Of a stretch of DNA of 47,124 bases, positions 4,484 to 15,441 are shown in pieces. This DNA comes from Bacteroidales bacterium. GTDB taxonomy: Bacteria; Bacteroidota; Bacteroidia; Bacteroidales; GCA-2748055. Where the stretch lies: NCBI GenBank assembly GCA_029931975.1, contig JAOZQY010000026.1, forward strand, positions 1-47,124, written 5' to 3'. Under the pieces are notes generated by a model that was given only the letters and a program-made list of their open reading frames with translations, made no database searches and was not told where the DNA came from. Made by a program: the position numbers and the translations under genes. How positions within the stretch are numbered: position 1 is the first letter of the stretch; every line of letters begins with the position of its first letter.

Positions 4484-6421
4484 ATGAGTTACCTGACTTT
4501 TGATAAAAAAGAACTGATTAATCTTGAATATTCTCTGTCCAGGGAGGTGATCAGGTCAAACCGTGCAGGTTCTTACGCTTCGTCCACTATCATTGGTTGT
4601 AACACCAGGAAGTACCACGGATTGCTTGTTTGTCCGCTGGAAGAGATGGATGGCGAACACCATGTACTGCTTTCCACACTGGATCCGACAGTGATTCAGC
4701 ACGACAAAGAGTTTAACCTGGGGATCCATAAATACGAGGGAGATCATTATGTTCCCAAAGGCCATAAGTATGTTAGAGAATATAGCAATATTAAAGCTTC
4801 ATACCTGGTCTATCGTGTTGGAGGGGTCATCCTTTCCAGGGAGATAATACTGATATCCAAAGCTGAACAGGTGCTGCTCAGGTATACATTGATTGATGCC
4901 CATTCAGATACACTGCTTCGTCTACAACCATTCCTTGCATTCCGTAATTACCATGCATTAAGTAAATCCAATCTTTATATCAATACCAGGTATGAGGAAG
5001 TGAAAAACGGCATTATGTCAAGGCTCTATGATGGATACCCCGGGCTCTATATGCAGTCTTCCAAGGCGGGAGAATTTGTTCCGGTTCCTGACTGGTATTA
5101 CAATGTAGAATACCTGGAGGAGCAGAAGAGGGGATATGACTATAAAGAGGATCTCTATGTGCCGGGTTATTTTGAGTTTTCCATTAAGAAGGGAGAATCC
5201 ATTGTATTCTCGGCTTCGACCAGTGAGGAGGCACCGGCGGGATTGAAAAGGAAGTTTACTTCGGAACTCAGGCAACGAACTTCCAAGGATAGTATAAAAG
5301 GATGCTTGCTGAATGCAGCCCAGCAGTTTATCGTCCGGAAACAAGACAGCACTGAGATCAAAGCTGGCTTTCCCTGGTTTGGAGCATGGGGGAGGGATAC
5401 CTTCATGGCTCTCCCGGGGCTCACGCTGACAACAGGTGATTTACCGACAGCTCTGGAAGTGATTGATTCGATGGTAGCCAGGATGAAGCAAGGCCTGTTC
5501 CCCAATACAGCCATTAAAGGCACACCGGCATTTAATTCTTCAGATGCTCCTCTCTGGTTTATTCGGGCCCTTCAGCAATATGAAAAATATGATCCGGATT
5601 TTGATATCTGGAAAAAATACGGGAAGGTCATTAAATCGGTACTGGAGACTTATCGTGATGGCTCATCAGGGGTCATCAGAATGCTGGAAAACGGACTGAT
5701 TCATGCAGAGGATGAGGGGAAAGCTCTTACCTGGATGGATGCAGAAGCGGATGGCCAGTTGGTAACTCCCAGGCCGGGACAGGTTGTTGAGGTAAATGCA
5801 CTGTGGTATAATTCGGTGTGTCAGGCTCTGCTCTGGGCAGAGAAAAGGGATAAGACTTTCTTCAAATCCTGGAGCCCTCTTCCTGAACAGATCAGGGAAT
5901 CTTTTGTTAAGGTGTTCTGGGATCCTGAGAGGGGATACCTGGCCGATTATGTTCATGGTTCTTTCAAGGACTTCGCTGTAAGACCCAGTCAGCTGATTGC
6001 AGTATCGGTTGATCATTCACCGCTTACTTCAGAAATGAAAAAATCCGTTCTTGATGTGGTGGAAGGGGAGTTACTGACGCCAAGGGGTCTTAGAAGCCTT
6101 TCTCCCAAGAATGAAGCATATAAGGGGATCTATGAGGGAAGCCAGGCTAAGCGTGATCGTGCCTATCATCAGGGAACCGTATGGCCCTGGTTGCTTGAAC
6201 ACTATGTGATTGGTGTCCTGGATGTACATAAGAAGACGGGACAGGGCCAGGTTAAGAAAATATATGATGGATTCGAAGAGGTAATGAGCTTGAGGGGTAT
6301 TGGGAGTATTTCTGAAATATACGACGGGAATCCCCCCCATTATGCCAGGGGTGCCATATCACAGGCAACCGGAGTCGCTGCTTTGCTGCGCATTGACGAG
6401 ATGATAGAAGGTTTTAAATAA
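4484..6421 (+). CDS. Glycogen debranching enzyme (amylo-alpha-1,6-glucosidase, GH133 type)
   Basis: This enzyme removes alpha-1,6-linked glucose at branch points of glycogen. The N-terminal ~230 residues match the bacterial/archaeal debranching-enzyme N-domain (RSNRAGSYASSTIIGCNTRKYHGLL near 25-48). Residues ~265-640 form the (alpha/alpha)6-barrel GDE C-domain, with WFGAWGRD at 298-305 and TWMDAE at 416-421, the likely catalytic region. A late HQGTVWPW motif is also typical. The protein has 645 residues and lacks the GH13 transferase half of eukaryotic debranching enzymes, so a separate 4-alpha-glucanotransferase is needed; the GH57 protein two genes downstream is a candidate. It is the first gene of the operon, and the next gene begins 20 bases after the stop. 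Confidence 0.93.
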   Translation: MSYLTFDKKELINLEYSLSREVIRSNRAGSYASSTIIGCNTRKYHGLLVCPLEEMDGEHHVLLSTLDPTVIQHDKEFNLGIHKYEGDHYVPKGHKYVREYSNIKASYLVYRVGGVILSREIILISKAEQVLLRYTLIDAHSDTLLRLQPFLAFRNYHALSKSNLYINTRYEEVKNGIMSRLYDGYPGLYMQSSKAGEFVPVPDWYYNVEYLEEQKRGYDYKEDLYVPGYFEFSIKKGESIVFSASTSEEAPAGLKRKFTSELRQRTSKDSIKGCLLNAAQQFIVRKQDSTEIKAGFPWFGAWGRDTFMALPGLTLTTGDLPTALEVIDSMVARMKQGLFPNTAIKGTPAFNSSDAPLWFIRALQQYEKYDPDFDIWKKYGKVIKSVLETYRDGSSGVIRMLENGLIHAEDEGKALTWMDAEADGQLVTPRPGQVVEVNALWYNSVCQALLWAEKRDKTFFKSWSPLPEQIRESFVKVFWDPERGYLADYVHGSFKDFAVRPSQLIAVSVDHSPLTSEMKKSVLDVVEGELLTPRGLRSLSPKNEAYKGIYEGSQAKRDRAYHQGTVWPWLLEHYVIGVLDVHKKTGQGQVKKIYDGFEEVMSLRGIGSISEIYDGNPPHYARGAISQATGVAALLRIDEMIEGFK

Positions 6422-6440: not shown

Positions 6441-7727
6441 ATGAGGGTATTGATGTTTGGGTGGGAGTTTCCACCACATATTTCCGGGGGACTGGGTACT
6501 GCCTGTTATGGGCTTACCAGGGGGATGTCGGTAATTCCGGAGCTGGATATCCTGTTTGTGGTTCCAAAGGCCCACGGCGATGAGGACCAGAGCAGGATCC
6601 GTCTGATGGGTGCCGGTGATGTAAGCCTCGATATTAGGGCAGTTAAAGATCACAAATTTTTGAAGGACCTGTCCTATATTGAAATCAACTCCAACCTTGT
6701 ACCCTATACATCTCCTGAAGAATACGATGAACTAATCAATAAGGCAGAAACCATGGGAAAAAGGCTGGTGGAGACTACCATGGGCGGACAGCTTAATTTC
6801 ACCGGAACCTATGGTAAAAACCTCTATGAAGAGATTACCAATTACGCCATCGTAGCCGGAGAGATTGCGCTTAAAGAGGAATTTGATATTATCCATTCCC
6901 ACGACTGGCTCACTTATCCGGCAGGGATTGCAGCCAAACGGGCTTCGGGAAAGCCGCTGGTTATTCATGTGCATGCCACTGATTTTGACAGGAGTGGGGG
7001 AAAGGTGAATCCCACGGTCTTTGAGATTGAAAAGACAGGAATGCACTTGGCCGATAAGATTATTGCGGTCAGTAACCTGACCCGCAATACGATTATAGAT
7101 AAGTATGGGATCCATCCTGATAAGGTGCTTACCGTATATAATGCTGTAGACCCCCTTTCGGATATGGAGAAGCTCCAGTTGAAGCGGGGAATCAACGATA
7201 AGGTGGTTACTTTCCTTGGACGAATCACCCTTCAGAAAGGACCCGAATATTTTGTCCAGGCAGCTTACAAGGTCCTGCAGAAAATGGATAGTGTAAGATT
7301 TGTGATGGCAGGCAGCGGCGAGTTGCTTGAAAAAATGATTCACTGGACAGCAAAACTTGGGATCTCGGACAGGTTTCACTATACCGGCTTCCTGAAGGGG
7401 GATGATGTGTTCAAAATGTTCTCCCTCAGTGATGTTTATGTGATGCCTTCCGTTTCAGAACCTTTCGGCATATCCCCGCTGGAAGCTATGCAATCTAACG
7501 TCCCATCCATTATTTCCCACCAGTCGGGTGTGGCTGAAATCCTGAATTACGCATTCAAAGTAGATTTCTGGGATGTGGATGCACTGGCCGATGCCATTTA
7601 CGGACTCTTGAATTATCCTTCTCTTTCAGAGATGTTTAAAAAGTATGGGGTAGCTGAGGTAAACGATATGAAGTGGGAGAACTCAGGGAAAAAAGTTCAT
7701 TCCATCTATAAAGAATTTGTTCAATAG
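6441..7727 (+). CDS. GT4 glycosyltransferase, glycogen/starch synthase-like
   Basis: This 428-residue GT-B enzyme starts with MRVLMFGWEFPPHISGGLG, where the GGLG loop is the nucleotide-sugar glycine loop of bacterial starch synthase-like enzymes. An HSHDW motif lies near 152-156. The C-terminal domain has TFLGRITLQKG (~255) and SEPFGISPLEAM, which carries the E-x7-E donor-binding motif. It is shorter than GlgA (about 470-480 residues) and is best called GT4. Its place between debranching enzyme and GH57 enzyme argues for elongation of alpha-glucan or maltooligosaccharide. Whether the donor is ADP- or UDP-glucose cannot be read from the sequence. Confidence 0.85.
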   Translation: MRVLMFGWEFPPHISGGLGTACYGLTRGMSVIPELDILFVVPKAHGDEDQSRIRLMGAGDVSLDIRAVKDHKFLKDLSYIEINSNLVPYTSPEEYDELINKAETMGKRLVETTMGGQLNFTGTYGKNLYEEITNYAIVAGEIALKEEFDIIHSHDWLTYPAGIAAKRASGKPLVIHVHATDFDRSGGKVNPTVFEIEKTGMHLADKIIAVSNLTRNTIIDKYGIHPDKVLTVYNAVDPLSDMEKLQLKRGINDKVVTFLGRITLQKGPEYFVQAAYKVLQKMDSVRFVMAGSGELLEKMIHWTAKLGISDRFHYTGFLKGDDVFKMFSLSDVYVMPSVSEPFGISPLEAMQSNVPSIISHQSGVAEILNYAFKVDFWDVDALADAIYGLLNYPSLSEMFKKYGVAEVNDMKWENSGKKVHSIYKEFVQ

Positions 7728-7743
7728 CAAAATATGTGATCAC

Positions 7744-9141
7744 ATGAGAACTATCTGTTTCTATTTCCAGGTCCATCAGCCCTTCCGTTTCAGAAGGTAC
7801 CGTTTTTTTGATATTGGGAACGATCACTACTACTATGATGATTTTTCCAATGAATCTATCCTTCAAAAGGTGGCTCAGAAATGTTACCTGCCTGCCAATG
7901 AGCTGATGCTTGACCTGATTCAGAAATACAAGGGCAAGTTTAGGATTGCCTATTCCATTTCTGGGATAGCCATGGACCAGTTCAGGCTATATGCCCCCGA
8001 GGTGTTGGAAAGTTTTAAGACACTGGCCGATACGGGAAAGGTGGAGTTTCTTTCAGAAACATATGCCCACTCGCTTAGTTCTCTAAAAGGGAAAGAGGAG
8101 TTTGAACGCCAGGTCAGGGTACATGATCAGTTAATTAAGGAATATTTTGGACAGGAACCAAAGGTTTTCCGGAATACAGAGCTTATCTATTCTGATGAAA
8201 TTGGTGCCATGGTGGCTGATATGGGTTTTAAGGCCATGCTTACCGAGGGGGCCAAACATGTACTGGGCTGGAAAAGCCCCAACTATCTCTACTGTAATGC
8301 CATCAATCCAAAGCTGAAACTTTTGCTTAAAAACTTTAAGCTAAGTGATGATATTGCCTTCAGGTTTTCCAATAAGTCCTGGTCCGATTACCCGTTGACA
8401 GCTGACAAGTTTGTGGACTGGCTGAATCAGACTCCCGAAAAGGAAGAGGTTCTGAACCTTTTTATGGATTATGAGACATTTGGAGAGCACCAGTGGAAAG
8501 AAACGGGGATATTTGATTTCCTGGAGGCGTTGCCGGAAAGTGTTTTCAAGAATTCGCCTTTTACCTTCAGCACGCCATCAGAGGTGGCTCAAAAACTTCA
8601 AGTGGTTTCTGCAGTACATGTACCCCATCCAATCTCCTGGGCAGATGAGGAACGTGATCTTACCGCCTGGCTGGGGAATGAACTGCAAAATGAGGCCTTT
8701 GATAAACTCTATTCACTGGGAGAAAAGGTTTATGAATCGGGCAATGACGGAATCAAACAGGATTATGCTTACCTGCAGGTAAGCGACCATTTCTATTATA
8801 TGTCCACGAAATTTTTCTCCGATGGAGAGGTTCATTCCTATTTCAATCCTTACGATACGCCCTATGATGCATTTATTAACTATATGAATATACTGAGCGA
8901 TTTTGAGATCAGGGTAAATGCTGCTGTAAATGCCGATGTGGACGATCATGTGGCTCGCCTTAGCAAGATCATCAAAGAGAAGGATGAACAGCTGGAGAAG
9001 CTGGAAAAGCGTTTGGCTGCAAAGCCTGTTGCGGCTACTAAAGGAGCTGTGGCCACGAAAAAAACCGCAACAACTAAAAAAGGTGCAGCCTCGAAAAAGG
9101 CAGGTGCCGTAAAGAAAAGTACGGCGGGTAAGAAAAGTTAA
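7744..9141 (+). CDS. GH57 alpha-amylase / 4-alpha-glucanotransferase with Lys/Ala-rich tail
   Basis: This GH57 enzyme acts on alpha-1,4-glucan. It opens with RTICFYFQVHQPFR, containing the HQP motif (11-13). Likely catalytic residues are E146 in RNTELIYSDEIG (nucleophile) and D242 in FMDYETFGEHQ (acid/base). The ATG at 7744 is preferred over an in-frame TTG at 7717, because it places the conserved beta-strand at the N-terminus and avoids overlap with the upstream gene. After the catalytic region comes a short coiled coil (~404-422) and then about 42 residues made almost only of Lys, Ala, Thr, Gly and Ser. Such a tail is not part of the GH57 fold; binding to a polyanion is speculation. The fusion gene starts 22 bases downstream. 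Confidence 0.9.
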   Translation: MRTICFYFQVHQPFRFRRYRFFDIGNDHYYYDDFSNESILQKVAQKCYLPANELMLDLIQKYKGKFRIAYSISGIAMDQFRLYAPEVLESFKTLADTGKVEFLSETYAHSLSSLKGKEEFERQVRVHDQLIKEYFGQEPKVFRNTELIYSDEIGAMVADMGFKAMLTEGAKHVLGWKSPNYLYCNAINPKLKLLLKNFKLSDDIAFRFSNKSWSDYPLTADKFVDWLNQTPEKEEVLNLFMDYETFGEHQWKETGIFDFLEALPESVFKNSPFTFSTPSEVAQKLQVVSAVHVPHPISWADEERDLTAWLGNELQNEAFDKLYSLGEKVYESGNDGIKQDYAYLQVSDHFYYMSTKFFSDGEVHSYFNPYDTPYDAFINYMNILSDFEIRVNAAVNADVDDHVARLSKIIKEKDEQLEKLEKRLAAKPVAATKGAVATKKTATTKKGAASKKAGAVKKSTAGKKS

Positions 9142-9163: not shown

Positions 9164-12100
9164 ATGAGAAAACCTGATTATTTATTTGAGGTTAGTTGGG
9201 AAGTATGCAATAAAGTGGGGGGAATACATACGGTTATATCCACCAAGGCCCTCTCTGTGGTTGAAGAGCTGGCCGATCAGTATATCACCATAGGTCCGGA
9301 TGTCTGGAGAGAAAGCAAGGAGCATCCGGAGTTTGAAGAGGATCGTACACTTTTTCCCGACTGGAGGGAGAGTGCTGCCAGGGAGGGACTTCGGGTCAGG
9401 ATCGGGCGCTGGAAAATTGCGGGTCGGCCCATTGCCGTGGTCCTGGACTTCACCACTTTCATCCAACGTAAAGATGAGATATTTAAGAAACTGTGGGAGT
9501 CCTATAAGCTGGATTCAATTAGCGGACAGTGGGACTACATAGAACCTGCTCTGTTTGGATATGCTGCCGGACAGGCTATCGAGAGCTTCTCCAGGTATTA
9601 CGATCTGGAAAAGAGGAATCTTGTGGCTCATTTTCATGAGTGGCAGACTGGCGCCGGACTGCTCTACCTGGAGAATTATCTACCCTCGGTAGGTACTGTA
9701 TTTACCACTCATGCCACCACAGTGGGACGTTCCATGGCAGGCAATATGCAGTCCCTTTACAGTCAGATGGACCAACTGAATGGGGATGTGAAGGCCCGGG
9801 AATTAAATGTGGTTGCGAAACACTCCCTTGAAAAACTGGCAGGAATAAATGCAGATGCTTTTACTACGGTGAGTGAGCTCACTGCCAGGGAGTGTCTCCA
9901 GTTTCATAAACGGGAGGTTGATGAAGTGTTGCCCAATGGTTTTGAGGATCAGTTTGTGCCGAAGGCGAAGGAGTTTGATAAGAAGCGCCAGGCGGCCAGG
10001 GAGAAAATGCTTCATATTGCAAGCGACATGACCGGGGATCAATTTTCTGAAGATACAATACTGATGGCTACCAGCGGGCGATATGAATTCAGGAACAAAG
10101 GGATAGATCTTTTCATTGATTCACTGGGCGAGTTGAACAGGAATCAGAGTTGTCCGGGTAAGGCCGTGGCATTCCTCCTGATCCCGGCCAATCATTATGG
10201 TCCGCACAAAGGGGGAAAGGACATCAAGCGGCATCTGACTCATAATCTACATTATGAGGAGCATGATCAGATCCTGAACAGGATGAAAAGCAATGGGCTG
10301 AATAACTCCGACGACGATAAGGTAAAGGTGATCTTCGTTCCCTCCTACCTGAATGGGGACGACGGCATCTTTAACCTGTCTTACTATGATGTATTGATTG
10401 GGCTGGATCTGACCATCTTTCCTTCTTATTATGAGCCCTGGGGGTATACGCCACTGGAGAGCCTGGCATTCAGTGTGCCTACTGTAACCACCACGCTTAC
10501 CGGTTTTGGCTTGTGGGTGAATAATGAATATAAAAAAGAGGTGCCTGGAATTACTGTAATTCCGCGTGATGATTTCAACGACAAGGAGGTAGTAGAAAGG
10601 ATCAGTCGAGCCATTTACGCTTACTGTGAAATTGGGGGCGAGGCCATGGAGAAAAGCCGTAAGGGCGCCCACGCTATCTCTCGTATAGCACTTTGGAAAA
10701 CCCTGATCAAGCATTACTGGAAGGCATATGATCATGCCTTGAAGAGTGCTGAAGGAAAAGAGGTCGTCTATTATGAAAAGGAGCGGATTGAAAAGCTTCC
10801 GGAAACAGAGCAGGCCCTGGTGGATATTCATCCTTTCTGGCGCCGGGTCATGGTTCAGCAAAATATCCCGGACAAACTTAAACCCCTGGAGGAGCTTTCA
10901 CGGAATCTCTGGTGGTCCTGGACCCAGGATGCCATCGACCTCTTCGAGTCCATCGATCCGAAGATATGGCTTAAGGTGAATGAGAACCCGGTAGAACTGT
11001 TGGAGCAACTACCTTATGACACACTGAAAAAACTGGAGACTAACGAACAGTTTCTTCAGAAGCTCCAGAAGGTCCATGGGGTTTTCATGGCCTATATGAC
11101 GGAAAAACCCAGGGAGGGCATGCCCGGAATCTCTTATTTCAGTATGGAGTACGGGATACATAATTCTCTGAAGACCTTTTCGGGCGGACTGGGCCTTCTG
11201 GCCGGGGACTACCTGAAGGAGGCCAGTGATTACAATATTCCATTGATTGGAGTCGGACTGTTATACAGGTATGGATATTTCAGGCAAATGATTTCGGCAG
11301 GCGGAGAACAGGTTGCACTTAGTGATGCTCAGGATTTCTCCAGGTTGCCTGTTACGGCTGTAAGAGATGAGGACGGAAACTGGAAGGATATTAATATTGT
11401 TCTTCCGGGACGTACGCTCTATGCCAGGATATGGAAAGTACAGGTGGGCAGGATTCCTTTGTACTTGCTTGATACAGATTATGAAGCCAACCAGGAGGGA
11501 GACAGGGGGATTACCCATAACCTATATGGGGGAGATAATGAAAATCGTCTGAAGCAGGAGATCCTGCTGGGCATTGGCGGAATCAGGGCCCTTAGGAGCA
11601 TTGGACTCGATACGGATATCTATCACTGCAACGAGGGGCATGCAGCTTTTACAAGCCTGGAACGCTTAAGGGAGTATATTCAGGAGGGGAATATGACTTA
11701 CCCTGAAGCTGTGGAACTGGTTCGTTCATCCAGCCTCTTTACCACCCATACACCGGTTCCTGCGGGTCATGATTCCTTCGAGGAGGATATTTTGCGGACT
11801 TATGTGGCCCACTATCCAGAACGCCTGAAAATTTCATGGAACCAATTTATGAACCTGGGTCGCTTCCATCCCAACCAGAGAAATGAGAAGTTTTCCATGA
11901 GTATACTGGCAGTAAGATTATCCCAGGAGGTCAACGGCGTAAGCAAGTTGCACGGTGAGGTATCCAGGGATATGTTTACCGGGTTGTGGCCGGGGTATAT
12001 GACCGATGAATTGCATATTGGTTATGTGACCAACGGGGTTCATCTGCCCACATGGCTGGGTGCGGAATGGAAAAAACTTTATGAAAGAACATTTGGGGAG

Positions 12101-13369
12101 AATTGTTTTCTGCGTCAGGAGGATCGTGTGATGTGGGACAGGATCAAAGAGGTTTCGGGAAAAGAGATATGGAGCCTGAAATCGAGGGAACGCGAGGGAC
12201 TGATCAATCATATTAAAGACAGGCTGTCGGTGGCTTCCACAAAGATGATGGATAATCCCGGCCAGATGCTGGAAATCTCCACCGCACTAAATAAAGATGC
12301 GTTGACCATTGGGTTTGCACGGAGGTTTGCCACATATAAACGTGCACATCTGCTATTCAGAGACCTGGATCGGCTCTCAAGGATTGTCAATGATCCTGAG
12401 AAACCGGTACAGTTTGTATTTGCAGGGAAAGCGCATCCCAGGGATATTCCGGGACAGGATCTGATCAAGATGATTGTAGAGATCTCGAAAAGACCGGAAT
12501 TTATTGGGAAGATTGTTTTTCTTCAAAACTACGATATACTTCTGGCCAAGCGATTGGTACGTGGAGTTGATATCTGGCTCAATACTCCTACCAGGCCCCT
12601 TGAGGCCTCAGGAACCAGCGGGGAGAAGGCTGTAATGAACGGGACCATGCACTTCTCTGTGCTGGATGGCTGGTGGGCCGAAGGGTACAGGGAAGATGCA
12701 GGCTGGATGTTACCCATTGAGCGCTCCTTTGACAACCAGGAGTTGCAGGACGAACTGGACGCAGAGCGGATCTACACTCTGCTGGAGACTAATATCACTG
12801 AGAAGTTCTACGATCGCGATCAGGACGATGTGCCGGGCGATTGGGTTGGAATGATCCAGAACACCATTGCACATGTAGCCCCCAAGTTTACCATGAACAG
12901 GATGCTTAGGGATTATATCAACAGATTCTATATGAAGCTTTATAAGCGCTCCCAAATAATGAAGGAAAAGGATTGCCTTTTACCCAAGGAGCTGGCACTC
13001 TGGAAACACAGGATTCTCGGACACTGGAAGAATATCAAGGTAGTGGAGTATGACTTCCCCGATGTGACCCGCACGGAGTTTGTAGCGGGCAACACCTATA
13101 CAGGGAAGGTGGTACTGGACCTGGATGGTCTGTCGGCTGAAGAGATCGGCGTGGAAATGGTTCATACCAGGAGCCACAGCGGAAATGAAGCATCAGAGTT
13201 CAGGGGAGCTGTGGAGTTTGAATGTACCCATGTTGATGGTACGCTGGCAGAGTACACCATTGTTCAGCAAGTTGATGAAACTGGTGTATTTGATATTGGC
13301 TTCAGGATTTTTCCAAAACATGAACATGTTCCTCACCGGATGGATTTCCCATTGGTTCGATGGATTTAA
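9164..13369 (+). CDS. Fusion protein: GT3 glycogen synthase plus GT35 alpha-glucan phosphorylase
   Basis: A 1401-residue protein with two complete enzyme domains of opposite function. Residues 1-~545 resemble GT3, the glycogen synthase family of animals and fungi, which normally uses UDP-glucose: FEVSWEVCNKVGGIHTV at the N-terminus (K17, G19, G20) and an E-x7-E motif at E424/E432 in YYEPWGYTPLE. Residues ~565-1270 are an alpha-glucan phosphorylase of the short archaeal/bacterial type: DUF3417-like start (LEELSRNLWWSW), NEGHAAF and THTPVPAGHD. The PLP site is EASGTSGEKAVMNG with K1155 as the expected Schiff-base lysine. A C-terminal beta domain ends the chain. No internal stop or frameshift is seen. 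It is the last gene of the operon and faces the branching enzyme gene. Confidence 0.93.
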   Translation: MRKPDYLFEVSWEVCNKVGGIHTVISTKALSVVEELADQYITIGPDVWRESKEHPEFEEDRTLFPDWRESAAREGLRVRIGRWKIAGRPIAVVLDFTTFIQRKDEIFKKLWESYKLDSISGQWDYIEPALFGYAAGQAIESFSRYYDLEKRNLVAHFHEWQTGAGLLYLENYLPSVGTVFTTHATTVGRSMAGNMQSLYSQMDQLNGDVKARELNVVAKHSLEKLAGINADAFTTVSELTARECLQFHKREVDEVLPNGFEDQFVPKAKEFDKKRQAAREKMLHIASDMTGDQFSEDTILMATSGRYEFRNKGIDLFIDSLGELNRNQSCPGKAVAFLLIPANHYGPHKGGKDIKRHLTHNLHYEEHDQILNRMKSNGLNNSDDDKVKVIFVPSYLNGDDGIFNLSYYDVLIGLDLTIFPSYYEPWGYTPLESLAFSVPTVTTTLTGFGLWVNNEYKKEVPGITVIPRDDFNDKEVVERISRAIYAYCEIGGEAMEKSRKGAHAISRIALWKTLIKHYWKAYDHALKSAEGKEVVYYEKERIEKLPETEQALVDIHPFWRRVMVQQNIPDKLKPLEELSRNLWWSWTQDAIDLFESIDPKIWLKVNENPVELLEQLPYDTLKKLETNEQFLQKLQKVHGVFMAYMTEKPREGMPGISYFSMEYGIHNSLKTFSGGLGLLAGDYLKEASDYNIPLIGVGLLYRYGYFRQMISAGGEQVALSDAQDFSRLPVTAVRDEDGNWKDINIVLPGRTLYARIWKVQVGRIPLYLLDTDYEANQEGDRGITHNLYGGDNENRLKQEILLGIGGIRALRSIGLDTDIYHCNEGHAAFTSLERLREYIQEGNMTYPEAVELVRSSSLFTTHTPVPAGHDSFEEDILRTYVAHYPERLKISWNQFMNLGRFHPNQRNEKFSMSILAVRLSQEVNGVSKLHGEVSRDMFTGLWPGYMTDELHIGYVTNGVHLPTWLGAEWKKLYERTFGENCFLRQEDRVMWDRIKEVSGKEIWSLKSREREGLINHIKDRLSVASTKMMDNPGQMLEISTALNKDALTIGFARRFATYKRAHLLFRDLDRLSRIVNDPEKPVQFVFAGKAHPRDIPGQDLIKMIVEISKRPEFIGKIVFLQNYDILLAKRLVRGVDIWLNTPTRPLEASGTSGEKAVMNGTMHFSVLDGWWAEGYREDAGWMLPIERSFDNQELQDELDAERIYTLLETNITEKFYDRDQDDVPGDWVGMIQNTIAHVAPKFTMNRMLRDYINRFYMKLYKRSQIMKEKDCLLPKELALWKHRILGHWKNIKVVEYDFPDVTRTEFVAGNTYTGKVVLDLDGLSAEEIGVEMVHTRSHSGNEASEFRGAVEFECTHVDGTLAEYTIVQQVDETGVFDIGFRIFPKHEHVPHRMDFPLVRWI

Positions 13370-13428: not shown

Positions 13429-15441
13429 TTATCGGACCCGGGGTATATCTTTTCGTTGCAGTACCACAGCTGTTCTCGAGGGTAGATAGAGCTTTAGATT
13501 CTGCTTCAAGCCGAAAGAACGTTCAGGCGTGGTGCGATGACTAATGCTGCTGTCATACCTTCCAAAACCTCCGAATTCTCTCTGGTCAGAGCAGAGCAGG
13601 GTATTGTATTTCCCCGCATCCACGGCAAGCCCGTAACCGGTATAGGAGTTATGTGGGTGGAAGTTAAACACAAAGAGAAGACCCTTCCGTTCAAATGCAA
13701 TGATCAGATCTCCCTGATCTGTCTTCACATGCTTGCATGAGGTGTTATAGATGCCGGCCCTGGCCAGCATATGGATCATTTCCATATCAAAATTGCCCAG
13801 CTGACTGTATCTGAGCTTCTGGTTCTCTACAAGGCTCCACTGGCGCCTGGCATACTGGTAAGACCATTCATTCCCTTCCCTGGGGAAGTCGATCCATTCT
13901 GGGTGACCAAACTCATTGCCCATGAAGTTGAGGTAGGCGTTTCCTGCAGTAGCGGCTGTGATCAGGCGAATCATTTTATGCAGGGCGATTCCCCGGTCCA
14001 CCACCAGGTTCGTAGAGTCCCTGTTCATGTGCCAGTACATCTCCTTATCTATCAGCCGGAAGATGATGGTTTTATCTCCCACCAGGGCCTGATCGTGCGA
14101 TTCGGCATATCCCACTGTTTTTTCATCGGCCCGCTTGGATGTGAGTTCATGGAAAATTTCAGAAACGTTCCATGCTTCATCGGCTTTTTCCTTAATGGTT
14201 TTGATCCAGTAGTCCGGAGTTCCCATGGCCAGCCTGTAATTAAAGCCCAAGCCTCCATTTTCGACTGGGACGGCCAGTCCGGGATATCCGCTCATATCCT
14301 CCGCAATGGAGAGTGCTCCCGGCCTGATTTCCTGTATCATCTTGTTAGCCAGGCTCAGGTAAGTGATGGCATCTTCGTCCTGTCCACCGTCAAAATAGAA
14401 ATCGTAACTGGTAAAATCCCTCTCCAGTCCATGATCATAAAAGAGCATGCTTGTAACCCCGTCGAATCTGAATCCGTCGAATCGAAATTCTGTCAGCCAG
14501 TAATTCACATTGGAGAGCAGAAAATGGCTCACCTCGTTTTTCCCATAATCAAAACACAGGGAGTCCCAGGCCACATGCTCCCTTCGGTGATTGCCATGGA
14601 AGAACTGAGCCGGATCACCATCCAGCAATCCCAGTCCCTCGTTCTCATTTTTTACCGCATGCGAATGGACAATATCCATGATCACAGCGATACCATGCCC
14701 GTGGGCCTCGTCTATAAGTTCCTTCAGTTCTTCCGGAGTGCCGAATCTGGAACTGGCTGCAAAAAAATTGGAGACATGGTATCCAAAGGAACCGTAATAG
14801 GGATGTTCCTGAATGGCCATCAGTTGGAGTGTATTATATCCTCCACGGAGCACATGTGGCAATACTTTTTCCCGGAATTCGGAGTAGCTTCCCACCTTGT
14901 ATTCCTCTGTTGCCATACCTATATGGCCTTCATAGATCAGGGGCTGGAAATTCTCAAGTTCGGGAAGACGATTCTTCCATTGAAAGGGCTGAGCCGGGCT
15001 CCATACCTGCGCATCAAAAATATGTGTTTCAGGATCCTGTACCACCCTGGTACACCAGGCGGGAATCCGGTTTCCTTCTCCGCCATCCCAGCGAATCAGC
15101 AATTTGTAGCGGTCGCCATGAGTGAGCGACCCTTCGTCCAGCAGGATCTCCCAGTTGCCATGTTCGAGCCGTATAAAACGGTATTTTTCTTCAATTTGCC
15201 AATTGTTGAAGGTTCCGGTCAAAAATATCTCTGTGGCATGGGGTGCCCATTCGCGCATGATCCAGGATTTTTTCTGCCTGTGTAGTCCGAACCAGAGGTG
15301 TCCGCTGGCAAAAGACTGCAGCGTGCTTTTACCTGCCAGTTGCCGTTCTCTTTCCAGGGTATTATCCATACGCTTGATAATAACATCTGTATAAGGTTCA
15401 AGCCAGGGGTCGTTCTGGATAAGACGAGGAGGGTTTGCCAT
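13429..15441 (-). CDS. glgB: 1,4-alpha-glucan branching enzyme (GH13_8, eukaryote-like)
   Basis: This enzyme makes alpha-1,6 branches by transferring alpha-1,4 chain segments. The 670-residue protein has an N-terminal helix, a CBM48-like beta domain (~60-150; REWAPHATEIFLTGTFNNW), the GH13 barrel and a C-terminal beta domain. Catalytic residues are visible: D327 in FDGFRFDGV (nucleophile), E381 in IAEDMSG (acid/base) and D450 in ESHDQ (transition-state stabiliser). The compact layout and the FGYHVSNFFA and ALVGDKT motifs match subfamily 8, the animal, fungal and plant type also found in Bacteroidota. It converges on the synthase-phosphorylase fusion with a 59-base gap that has no obvious terminator. 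A plus-strand open frame lies antisense across much of it and is not considered a gene. Confidence 0.95.
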   Translation of the reverse strand: MANPPRLIQNDPWLEPYTDVIIKRMDNTLERERQLAGKSTLQSFASGHLWFGLHRQKKSWIMREWAPHATEIFLTGTFNNWQIEEKYRFIRLEHGNWEILLDEGSLTHGDRYKLLIRWDGGEGNRIPAWCTRVVQDPETHIFDAQVWSPAQPFQWKNRLPELENFQPLIYEGHIGMATEEYKVGSYSEFREKVLPHVLRGGYNTLQLMAIQEHPYYGSFGYHVSNFFAASSRFGTPEELKELIDEAHGHGIAVIMDIVHSHAVKNENEGLGLLDGDPAQFFHGNHRREHVAWDSLCFDYGKNEVSHFLLSNVNYWLTEFRFDGFRFDGVTSMLFYDHGLERDFTSYDFYFDGGQDEDAITYLSLANKMIQEIRPGALSIAEDMSGYPGLAVPVENGGLGFNYRLAMGTPDYWIKTIKEKADEAWNVSEIFHELTSKRADEKTVGYAESHDQALVGDKTIIFRLIDKEMYWHMNRDSTNLVVDRGIALHKMIRLITAATAGNAYLNFMGNEFGHPEWIDFPREGNEWSYQYARRQWSLVENQKLRYSQLGNFDMEMIHMLARAGIYNTSCKHVKTDQGDLIIAFERKGLLFVFNFHPHNSYTGYGLAVDAGKYNTLLCSDQREFGGFGRYDSSISHRTTPERSFGLKQNLKLYLPSRTAVVLQRKDIPRVR

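Follow-up and report, generated by a model that had tools for sequence, protein, structure and literature searches.

The window analysed here is the whole 47,124 nucleotide (nt) contig JAOZQY010000026.1 (assembly GCA_029931975.1, Bacteroidales bacterium). At positions 9164–13369 of its plus strand it carries a gene in which a glycogen synthase of family GT3 and an alpha-glucan phosphorylase of family GT35 are fused in a single 1401 amino acid (aa) protein. The fusion is real and widespread. From its sequence it is fairly likely to be a bifunctional glycogen enzyme that would bring synthesis and phosphorolysis together in a 1:1 ratio on one glycogen particle. Opposing glycogen enzymes are a textbook case of separately controlled proteins; in much of the Bacteroidales the two are joined, as they are in some relatives from other orders of its class, and the model genera Bacteroides and Prevotella seem to have undone the fusion.

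Domain architecture of the fusion

The reading frame starts with ATG and has no internal stop. Its mirror on the minus strand is interrupted by many stops, and the longest minus-strand open reading frame listed within it is 204 aa. The following features are found, with residue counts taken from the alignment of 96 fused proteins described below:

9164–13369, plus strand: GT3-DUF3417-GT35 fusion gene, 1401 aa open frame (Pfam and NCBIfam)
9188–10768, plus strand: GT3 glycogen synthase domain, residues 9–535 (PF05693 and matches to human and yeast glycogen synthase)
9212–9223, plus strand: K17-V-G-G20, nucleotide-sugar loop of GT3 (conserved in fused proteins)
10433–10459, plus strand: GT3 catalytic pair E424 and E432 (96 of 96 fused proteins)
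10745–10831, plus strand: linker, residues 528–556 (variable letters, near-constant length, low predicted structural confidence)
10865–11170, plus strand: DUF3417, residues 568–669, the N-terminal part of a phosphorylase of TIGR02094 type (PF11897, 113 bits)
11129–12937, plus strand: GT35 alpha-glucan phosphorylase core, residues 656–1258 (TIGR02094, 832–835 bits)
12626–12628, plus strand: pyridoxal phosphate (PLP) lysine K1155 in EASGTSGEKA (96 of 96 fused proteins)
12938–13366, plus strand: C-terminal domain, residues 1259–1401 (aligns to the end of PDB 9l6i)

The initial annotation, made from the sequence letters, had placed GT3 and GT35 in one 1401-residue protein and had named the KVGG loop, E424, E432 and K1155; the frame is open, both families score far above their cut-offs and each residue is found at its place, the loop as N16-K17-V18-G19-G20. 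A search with hmmscan against Pfam identifies the N-terminal half as GT3 (Glycogen_syn, PF05693, 317 bits against a cut-off of 27), for which the glycogen synthases of human and yeast give E-values of 1e-76 to 2e-66. The Pfam Phosphorylase family scores 105 bits (cut-off 27) and TIGR02094, alpha-glucan family phosphorylase, is matched over its full profile by residues 656–1258 with 832 bits (cut-off 191.7). The C-terminal domain matches no Pfam family at E = 0.01, and no regulatory domain is recognised in the fusion.

Among nine NCBIfam models listed for the fusion, TIGR02094 is the only one above its cut-off. The glgA models reach 34–53 bits against cut-offs of 328–616, with the classical ADP-glucose GlgA of family GT5 (TIGR02095) at 53 bits where 328 are required, and the Thermococcales-type maltodextrin phosphorylase model NF041129 gives 729 bits where 1500 are required. 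A name based on NCBIfam would therefore give the phosphorylase alone, as had been foreseen in the initial annotation, and in genomes that bear the fusion, naming by such models can leave the synthase half of glycogen metabolism out of sight.

The nearest solved relatives are human and yeast glycogen synthase for the GT3 half and Segatella copri glycogen phosphorylase for the GT35 half. The Segatella enzyme (PDB 9l6i / 20yr) aligns with the whole GT35 half, including the DUF3417 region and the C-terminal domain, and the match to 9l6i extends over nearly the whole length (928 bits, 53% identity). Its chain, of 852 residues, includes no GT3 half.

Conservation of both active sites

The alignment used for residue counts consists of 96 fused proteins, i.e. 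the window and 95 of 101 other fused frames, six having been dropped for incomplete cover. GT3 residues G19, G20, H183, R306, K312, E424 and E432 are unchanged in all 96, as are GT35 residues R1053, R1054, Y1058, K1059 and K1155. Against human GYS1, E424/E432 line up with E510/E518, R306/K312 with R331/K337 and Y407 with Y493, which we take to be residues with catalytic roles; K1155 and the RR..YK motif of the GT35 half presumably serve as the PLP lysine and the phosphate site. By PF05693 score together with the E424/E432 pair (96 of 96) and K17 (90 of 96) the N-terminal half belongs to GT3, and by score, PLP lysine and RR..YK motif (96 of 96) the C-terminal half belongs to GT35 of TIGR02094 type. 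Ratios of nonsynonymous to synonymous change (pN/pS), calculated from seven close sequences with pS near saturation at 0.71–0.79, are 0.22 for GT3, 0.16 (0.158) for the linker, 0.25 for DUF3417, 0.13 for GT35 and 0.26 for the C-terminus. The invariant residues of the two halves suggest selection on both active sites.

The GT3 half is of a short type

The initial annotation had described GT3 as the synthase family of animals and fungi. This holds for the family at large but not for the fused form, which by its sequence is a short type that has neither the eukaryotic insert nor the arginine cluster for control by glucose-6-phosphate (G6P). The spacing from GRYEF to PSYYEPWG is 116 residues in the window and 112–128 in 14 of 21 short-type relatives (seven escaped the pattern), against 177–182 in 21 of 23 long-type Bacteroidota GT3 sequences (two escaped). 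PF05693 positions 342–413 find no match in the window, and the approximately 55-residue insert, whose exact place we assume to be between the N- and C-lobe motifs, is absent. The six-arginine cluster for G6P control is taken to be R579, R580, R582, R586, R588 and R591 of GYS1; at these positions the 96 fused proteins show no arginine in 22 cases, one in 65, two in 8 and three in 1. According to a passage in PMC11046441, the eukaryotic insert supplies extra helices for tetramers.

Eukaryotic GYS1 and Gsy2 share with the fusion the GT3 fold, the KVGG loop, the GRYEF..NKG motif and the catalytic glutamates, but differ in carrying both the insert and the arginine cluster for G6P; identity in structural alignments is 26–29%. 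The long-type GT3 of other Bacteroidota also belongs to the same family, and phylum, but keeps the insert and is unfused. One of these (L229) matches yeast Gsy2 almost end to end, insert included. The 23 long-type Bacteroidota frames compared are 607–797 aa, all of them too short for an added GT35 half. In the GT3 tree, three long-type sequences separate from the 109 short-type ones with full support.

Distribution of the fusion

Searches covered kin of the window. A scan of named genomes with a 20-sequence GT3 alignment gave at least 586 relatives, of which the best 80 were kept; chosen by their fit to the query, they do not form a random sample. GT3 and GT35 are present in a single frame in 77 of these best 80 loci, some cut by a contig end. 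In two others (L116, L164) the contig stops partway through the gene, so that they are not splits. In the last (L128) the frame breaks within the GT3 half, away from the linker, which may be an assembly error or a real break. The fusion is also found in records not titled as metagenome-assembled genomes (MAGs), namely Labilibacter sediminis, Plebeiobacterium sediminum, Dysgonomonas sp. HGC4, Marinifilum caeruleilacunae, Capnocytophaga canis and Chitinophaga rupis. The source genome is a draft of 366 contigs, and an assembly error or a misread stop could in principle have joined two genes, but the same frame in 77 of the best 80 loci, including records not titled as MAGs, refutes this and makes a chance or assembly artefact next to impossible.

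Within the order of the window, 266 of 295 genomes give a GT3 match, and 124 of the 141 short-type sequences listed carry the fusion, with frame lengths of 1300 aa or more; 9 are in frames of 500–650 aa and 8 in frames of other lengths. Other draws give a different picture. A phylum-wide draw of 392 genomes gave 21 GT3 matches, 18 of them over the cut-off. In a draw of 148 genomes from the class, 31 have a TIGR02094 phosphorylase over the cut-off: 10 in frames of 1149–1430 aa, all fused to GT3; 6 in frames of 854–931 aa, which are four split pairs and two without GT3; 14 short forms in frames of 552–619 aa; and 1 broken across two contigs.

Fusions outside the order of the window include L233–L238, L241–L243 and Chitinophaga rupis. 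On GT35 these branch outside the Bacteroidales group; the GT3 forks are mostly without resolution. They include a minimal form in the f177 lineage (L233:8757-12275, L234:8532-11978), 1149–1173 aa in length, in which the GT35 part starts approximately 96–99 residues late and ends at approximately 707–713 of 846. In L233, the member run against Pfam, DUF3417 stays under the cut-off (17 bits). The f177 fusions are without most of DUF3417 and the C-terminal domain, and the fusion is retained. The f199 lineage (L235–L238, 1337–1360 aa) is highly diverged and keeps the tested residues of both sites. In the f205 lineage (L239 and L240, from genomes G745 and G771) the TIGR02094 GT35 stands alone, and these genomes show no GT3 match. 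Thus fused, split, trimmed and GT35-only lineages form a natural experiment on the covalent linkage of a futile-cycle pair.

A longer fusion was considered and rejected. A 1891 aa frame in genome G442 has approximately 480 extra residues, which overlap the upstream GH57 gene in another frame and are therefore a stop-to-stop artefact.

Two pairings in the trees stand out. L133 (Capnocytophaga canis, flavobacterial) pairs with L141 (a Butyricimonas MAG, Odoribacteraceae) in both the GT3 and GT35 trees, which suggests transfer. The name of L107, a MAG titled Chitinophaga pinensis, is doubtful because both halves pair with L067, from a genome of the window's family.

Linker and predicted structure

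No stop or frameshift is found near residues 545–565, the stretch singled out in the initial annotation. The frame is continuous through the linker in six near relatives (L068–L072, L106) whose halves are 67–85% identical to those of the window, and the linker is under purifying selection; with a pN/pS of 0.16 it behaves as a translated, constrained sequence. Among the 96 fused proteins its letters are weakly conserved (mean 31% over 528–566) and display no conserved motif. The W511–N581 spacing is 68–70 residues in 78 of the 96.

An AlphaFold2 model of residues 1–1200 (70 rows) shows two folded enzymes, with a predicted local distance difference test score (pLDDT) of 84.5 and a predicted template modelling score of 0.76; the output is without inter-domain error and speaks to each half, not to their relative placement. 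The pLDDT falls below 50 at 538–564, and also at active-site loops 15–19, 1056–1058 and 1145–1148 and at 350–354 and 1168–1184. In the model the linker looks flexible.

Split pairs and the direction of change

In the GT35 tree (70 sequences) nine split pairs form one clade with an approximate likelihood ratio (SH-aLRT) support of 100. This clade sits within the fused sequences, with Marinilabiliaceae and Marinifilum as its neighbours. Its members include Bacteroides finegoldii, Phocaeicola massiliensis, Parabacteroides distasonis and a Prevotella (oral taxon 299). In the GT3 tree (112 sequences) the five true split sequences likewise form one clade nested among fused ones; the labels of this tree mark the contig ends L116 and L164 as split, which gives three changes of the split label. 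The split pairs resemble the fusion in subfamilies, order and strand, and are 45–51% identical to the halves of the window, but they are two proteins. Their genes are adjacent, with order kept and 27–108 nt between the GT3 stop and the first GT35 ATG (nine pairs).

From these trees the fusion is probably ancestral and old, with the split of the Bacteroides/Prevotella clade derived. When splits are taken as ancestral, the approximately unbiased test rejects this on GT35 (p = 0.009, with the solo L239 held with the fused sequences) and does not reject it on GT3 (p = 0.13). In outgroup-rooted full bootstraps, fused sequences are held together in 0 of 200 trees for either half. The trees were sampled without archaeal GT3. 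GT3 is also reported in DPANN archaea and others, and the Bacteroidetes GT3 was possibly gained from archaea, as stated in parts of PMC11046441. Fusion-first polarity is thus supported, not proven.

Two records of split-form species, NZ_OY725918.1 (Bacteroides finegoldii) and NZ_OY725812.1 (Parabacteroides distasonis), are titled plasmids and carry glycogen genes, the former with V-ATPase genes as well. Both look like chromosome pieces.

Proposed function and alternatives

As a bifunctional enzyme, the fusion would act as follows. The GT3 half is predicted to extend alpha-1,4-glucan ends from a nucleotide sugar, the donor being perhaps UDP-glucose by analogy with Prevotella. Prevotella bryantii has no glgC and has a eukaryotic-type UDP-glucose synthase, according to portions of PMC7935935 and PMC4432691; Prevotella oral taxon 299 carries the split form of the same GT3/GT35 pair. 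The GT35 half with PLP would cleave the same kind of ends with phosphate, yielding glucose-1-phosphate. A putative flexible tether of near-constant length would connect the two globular enzymes, setting their ratio at 1:1 and holding both on the same glycogen particle. With ratio and particle fixed, the net direction of flux would follow the supply of nucleotide sugar versus phosphate, plus any allostery of the halves. The fusion would presumably work alongside the debranching, GH57, GT4 and branching enzymes.

The initial annotation had suggested switching or channelling. The phosphorylase half yields glucose-1-phosphate, whereas the synthase half requires a nucleotide sugar, which leaves the end of the glucan chain as the one intermediate in common. 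What the phosphorylase makes is no substrate for the synthase, so direct channelling does not fit the chemistry and is implausible. Switching between the halves is possible, though the fusion has no recognised regulatory domain. One form of it, decidedly doubtful, is a self-contained, kinase-free switch in which occupation of one active site, or the binding of phosphate, glucose-1-phosphate or a nucleotide sugar, would shut down the other site, and vice versa, via the tethered domains. If this were true, one protein would equal the two enzymes of animals together with their phosphorylation cascade.

Several observations weigh against the bifunctional enzyme. In Bacteroides, Prevotella, Phocaeicola and Parabacteroides the two are separate proteins, so that the covalent link is dispensable, and the short type in the phylum-wide draw comes from five genomes, i.e. 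the window (fused) and four that are split. Some tested positions vary among the 96 fused proteins, with M for K17 in 6, F for Y407 in 1, N for H158 in 2 and E for R189 in 2. An uncontrolled 1:1 opposing pair would burn UTP in a futile cycle. In addition, the maker of the donor was not found, there being no GlgC or GalU over the cut-off in the genome of the window. PF00483 has three matches there, on contigs C167, C45 and C254 (L186/L256, L257 and L187/L258): an RmlA over the cut-off, and a mannose-1-phosphate guanylyltransferase-like and a MurU-like match, both below the cut-off with partial stretches scanned. PF01704 gives no match in this genome, and none in any control either, so that this negative carries no weight.

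Three alternatives were weighed. The first is length control, in which GT35 trims the chains made by GT3 and sets the outer-chain length for the branching enzyme, comparable to GH94 and GT84 in Cgs (cyclic beta-1,2-glucan synthase). In Cgs, phosphate shortens the products according to a part of PMC10901819, and the two sites of the fusion have only the chain end in common. However, the sole phosphorylase found in the genome must mobilise glycogen too, the families are unlike those of Cgs, and the low-confidence linker appears flexible in the model and not a rigid landscape. Length control is considered unlikely.

In the second, also improbable, two operon neighbours were joined by chance and the fusion was kept without gain, splitting being as free as joining. 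The genes of the split clade, still adjacent and in the same order 27–108 nt apart, agree with this, as does a linker that carries no conserved motif. But there is a single split clade against a fusion retained over many families and several orders, and the linker keeps a steady spacing, with codons that seem to be under selection.

The third, which appears quite unlikely, makes the link more structural than metabolic: the GT35 half would mainly supply a dimer and a glycogen-binding surface to the short GT3. The short GT3 is indeed without approximately 55 residues at the eukaryotic oligomerisation insert (spacing 112–128 versus 177–182), and none of the 23 long GT3 frames is long enough to be a fusion. 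Against such a scaffold speak the invariance of the phosphorylase residues tested, the short GT3 that stands as a protein of its own in the Bacteroides/Prevotella clade, and the f177 lineage, which remains fused after shedding the greater part of DUF3417 and the C-terminal domain.

Related fusions

Cgs (GT84 and GH94) resembles the present fusion in that synthase and phosphorylase of one polymer are in one chain, and its phosphorylase part is seemingly also a scaffold (sections of PMC10901819), but it is a membrane protein of other families that acts on beta-1,2-glucan. GlgA-GlgB of Waddlia, TreS-Mak and GlgB-MalQ of Neisseria are fused alpha-glucan enzymes as well (mentioned in parts of PMC11046441 and PMC7935935), but in none of these three is a synthase combined with the phosphorylase that reverses its action. 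In the open-access literature searched, no title or abstract describes a GT3-GT35 fusion; CAZy module tables may list it.

Gene neighbourhood and other glycogen genes

The fusion is situated in a run of glycogen genes:

4484–6421, plus strand: glycogen debranching enzyme (GDE_N/GDE_C), which opens the run (profile matches)
6441–7727, plus strand: GT4/GT5-like glycosyltransferase (profile matches)
7744–9141, plus strand: GH57 alpha-glucan enzyme (PF03065, 269 bits); the ATG at 7744 is our choice of start, the listed frame beginning with TTG at 7717
13429–15441, minus strand: GH13 branching enzyme, convergent with the fusion (CBM_48 and alpha-amylase matches; GlgB models below their equivalog cut-offs)

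The three upstream genes lie on the same strand as the fusion and are separated by short gaps. Of the 72 fused loci that include 7.5 kb or more of upstream sequence, 55 have each of the three in this position and orientation, and none is found beside five split pairs tested (L066, L073–L076). The branching enzyme is less regular. In the 76 fused loci that extend 3 kb or more past the fusion, it is downstream on the opposite strand in 13, as in the window, upstream in 17, downstream on the same strand in 1 and not seen in 45. The GT4 gene at 6441–7727, part of this conserved glycogen run, matches the GT5 starch synthase domain at its N-terminus.

The genome of the window (96% complete) has one GT3 and one TIGR02094 phosphorylase found, both in the fusion. 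It shows no GlgA over the cut-off, the best TIGR02095 score being 108 bits. A 276 aa frame (L188, G000:C45:60920-61552) matches only the N-terminal approximately 200 positions of GT5 glycogen/starch synthase and, on this match, is a putative retained GlgA fragment. A GT5 N-terminal fragment is remarked on for Bacteroidetes in a passage of PMC11046441.

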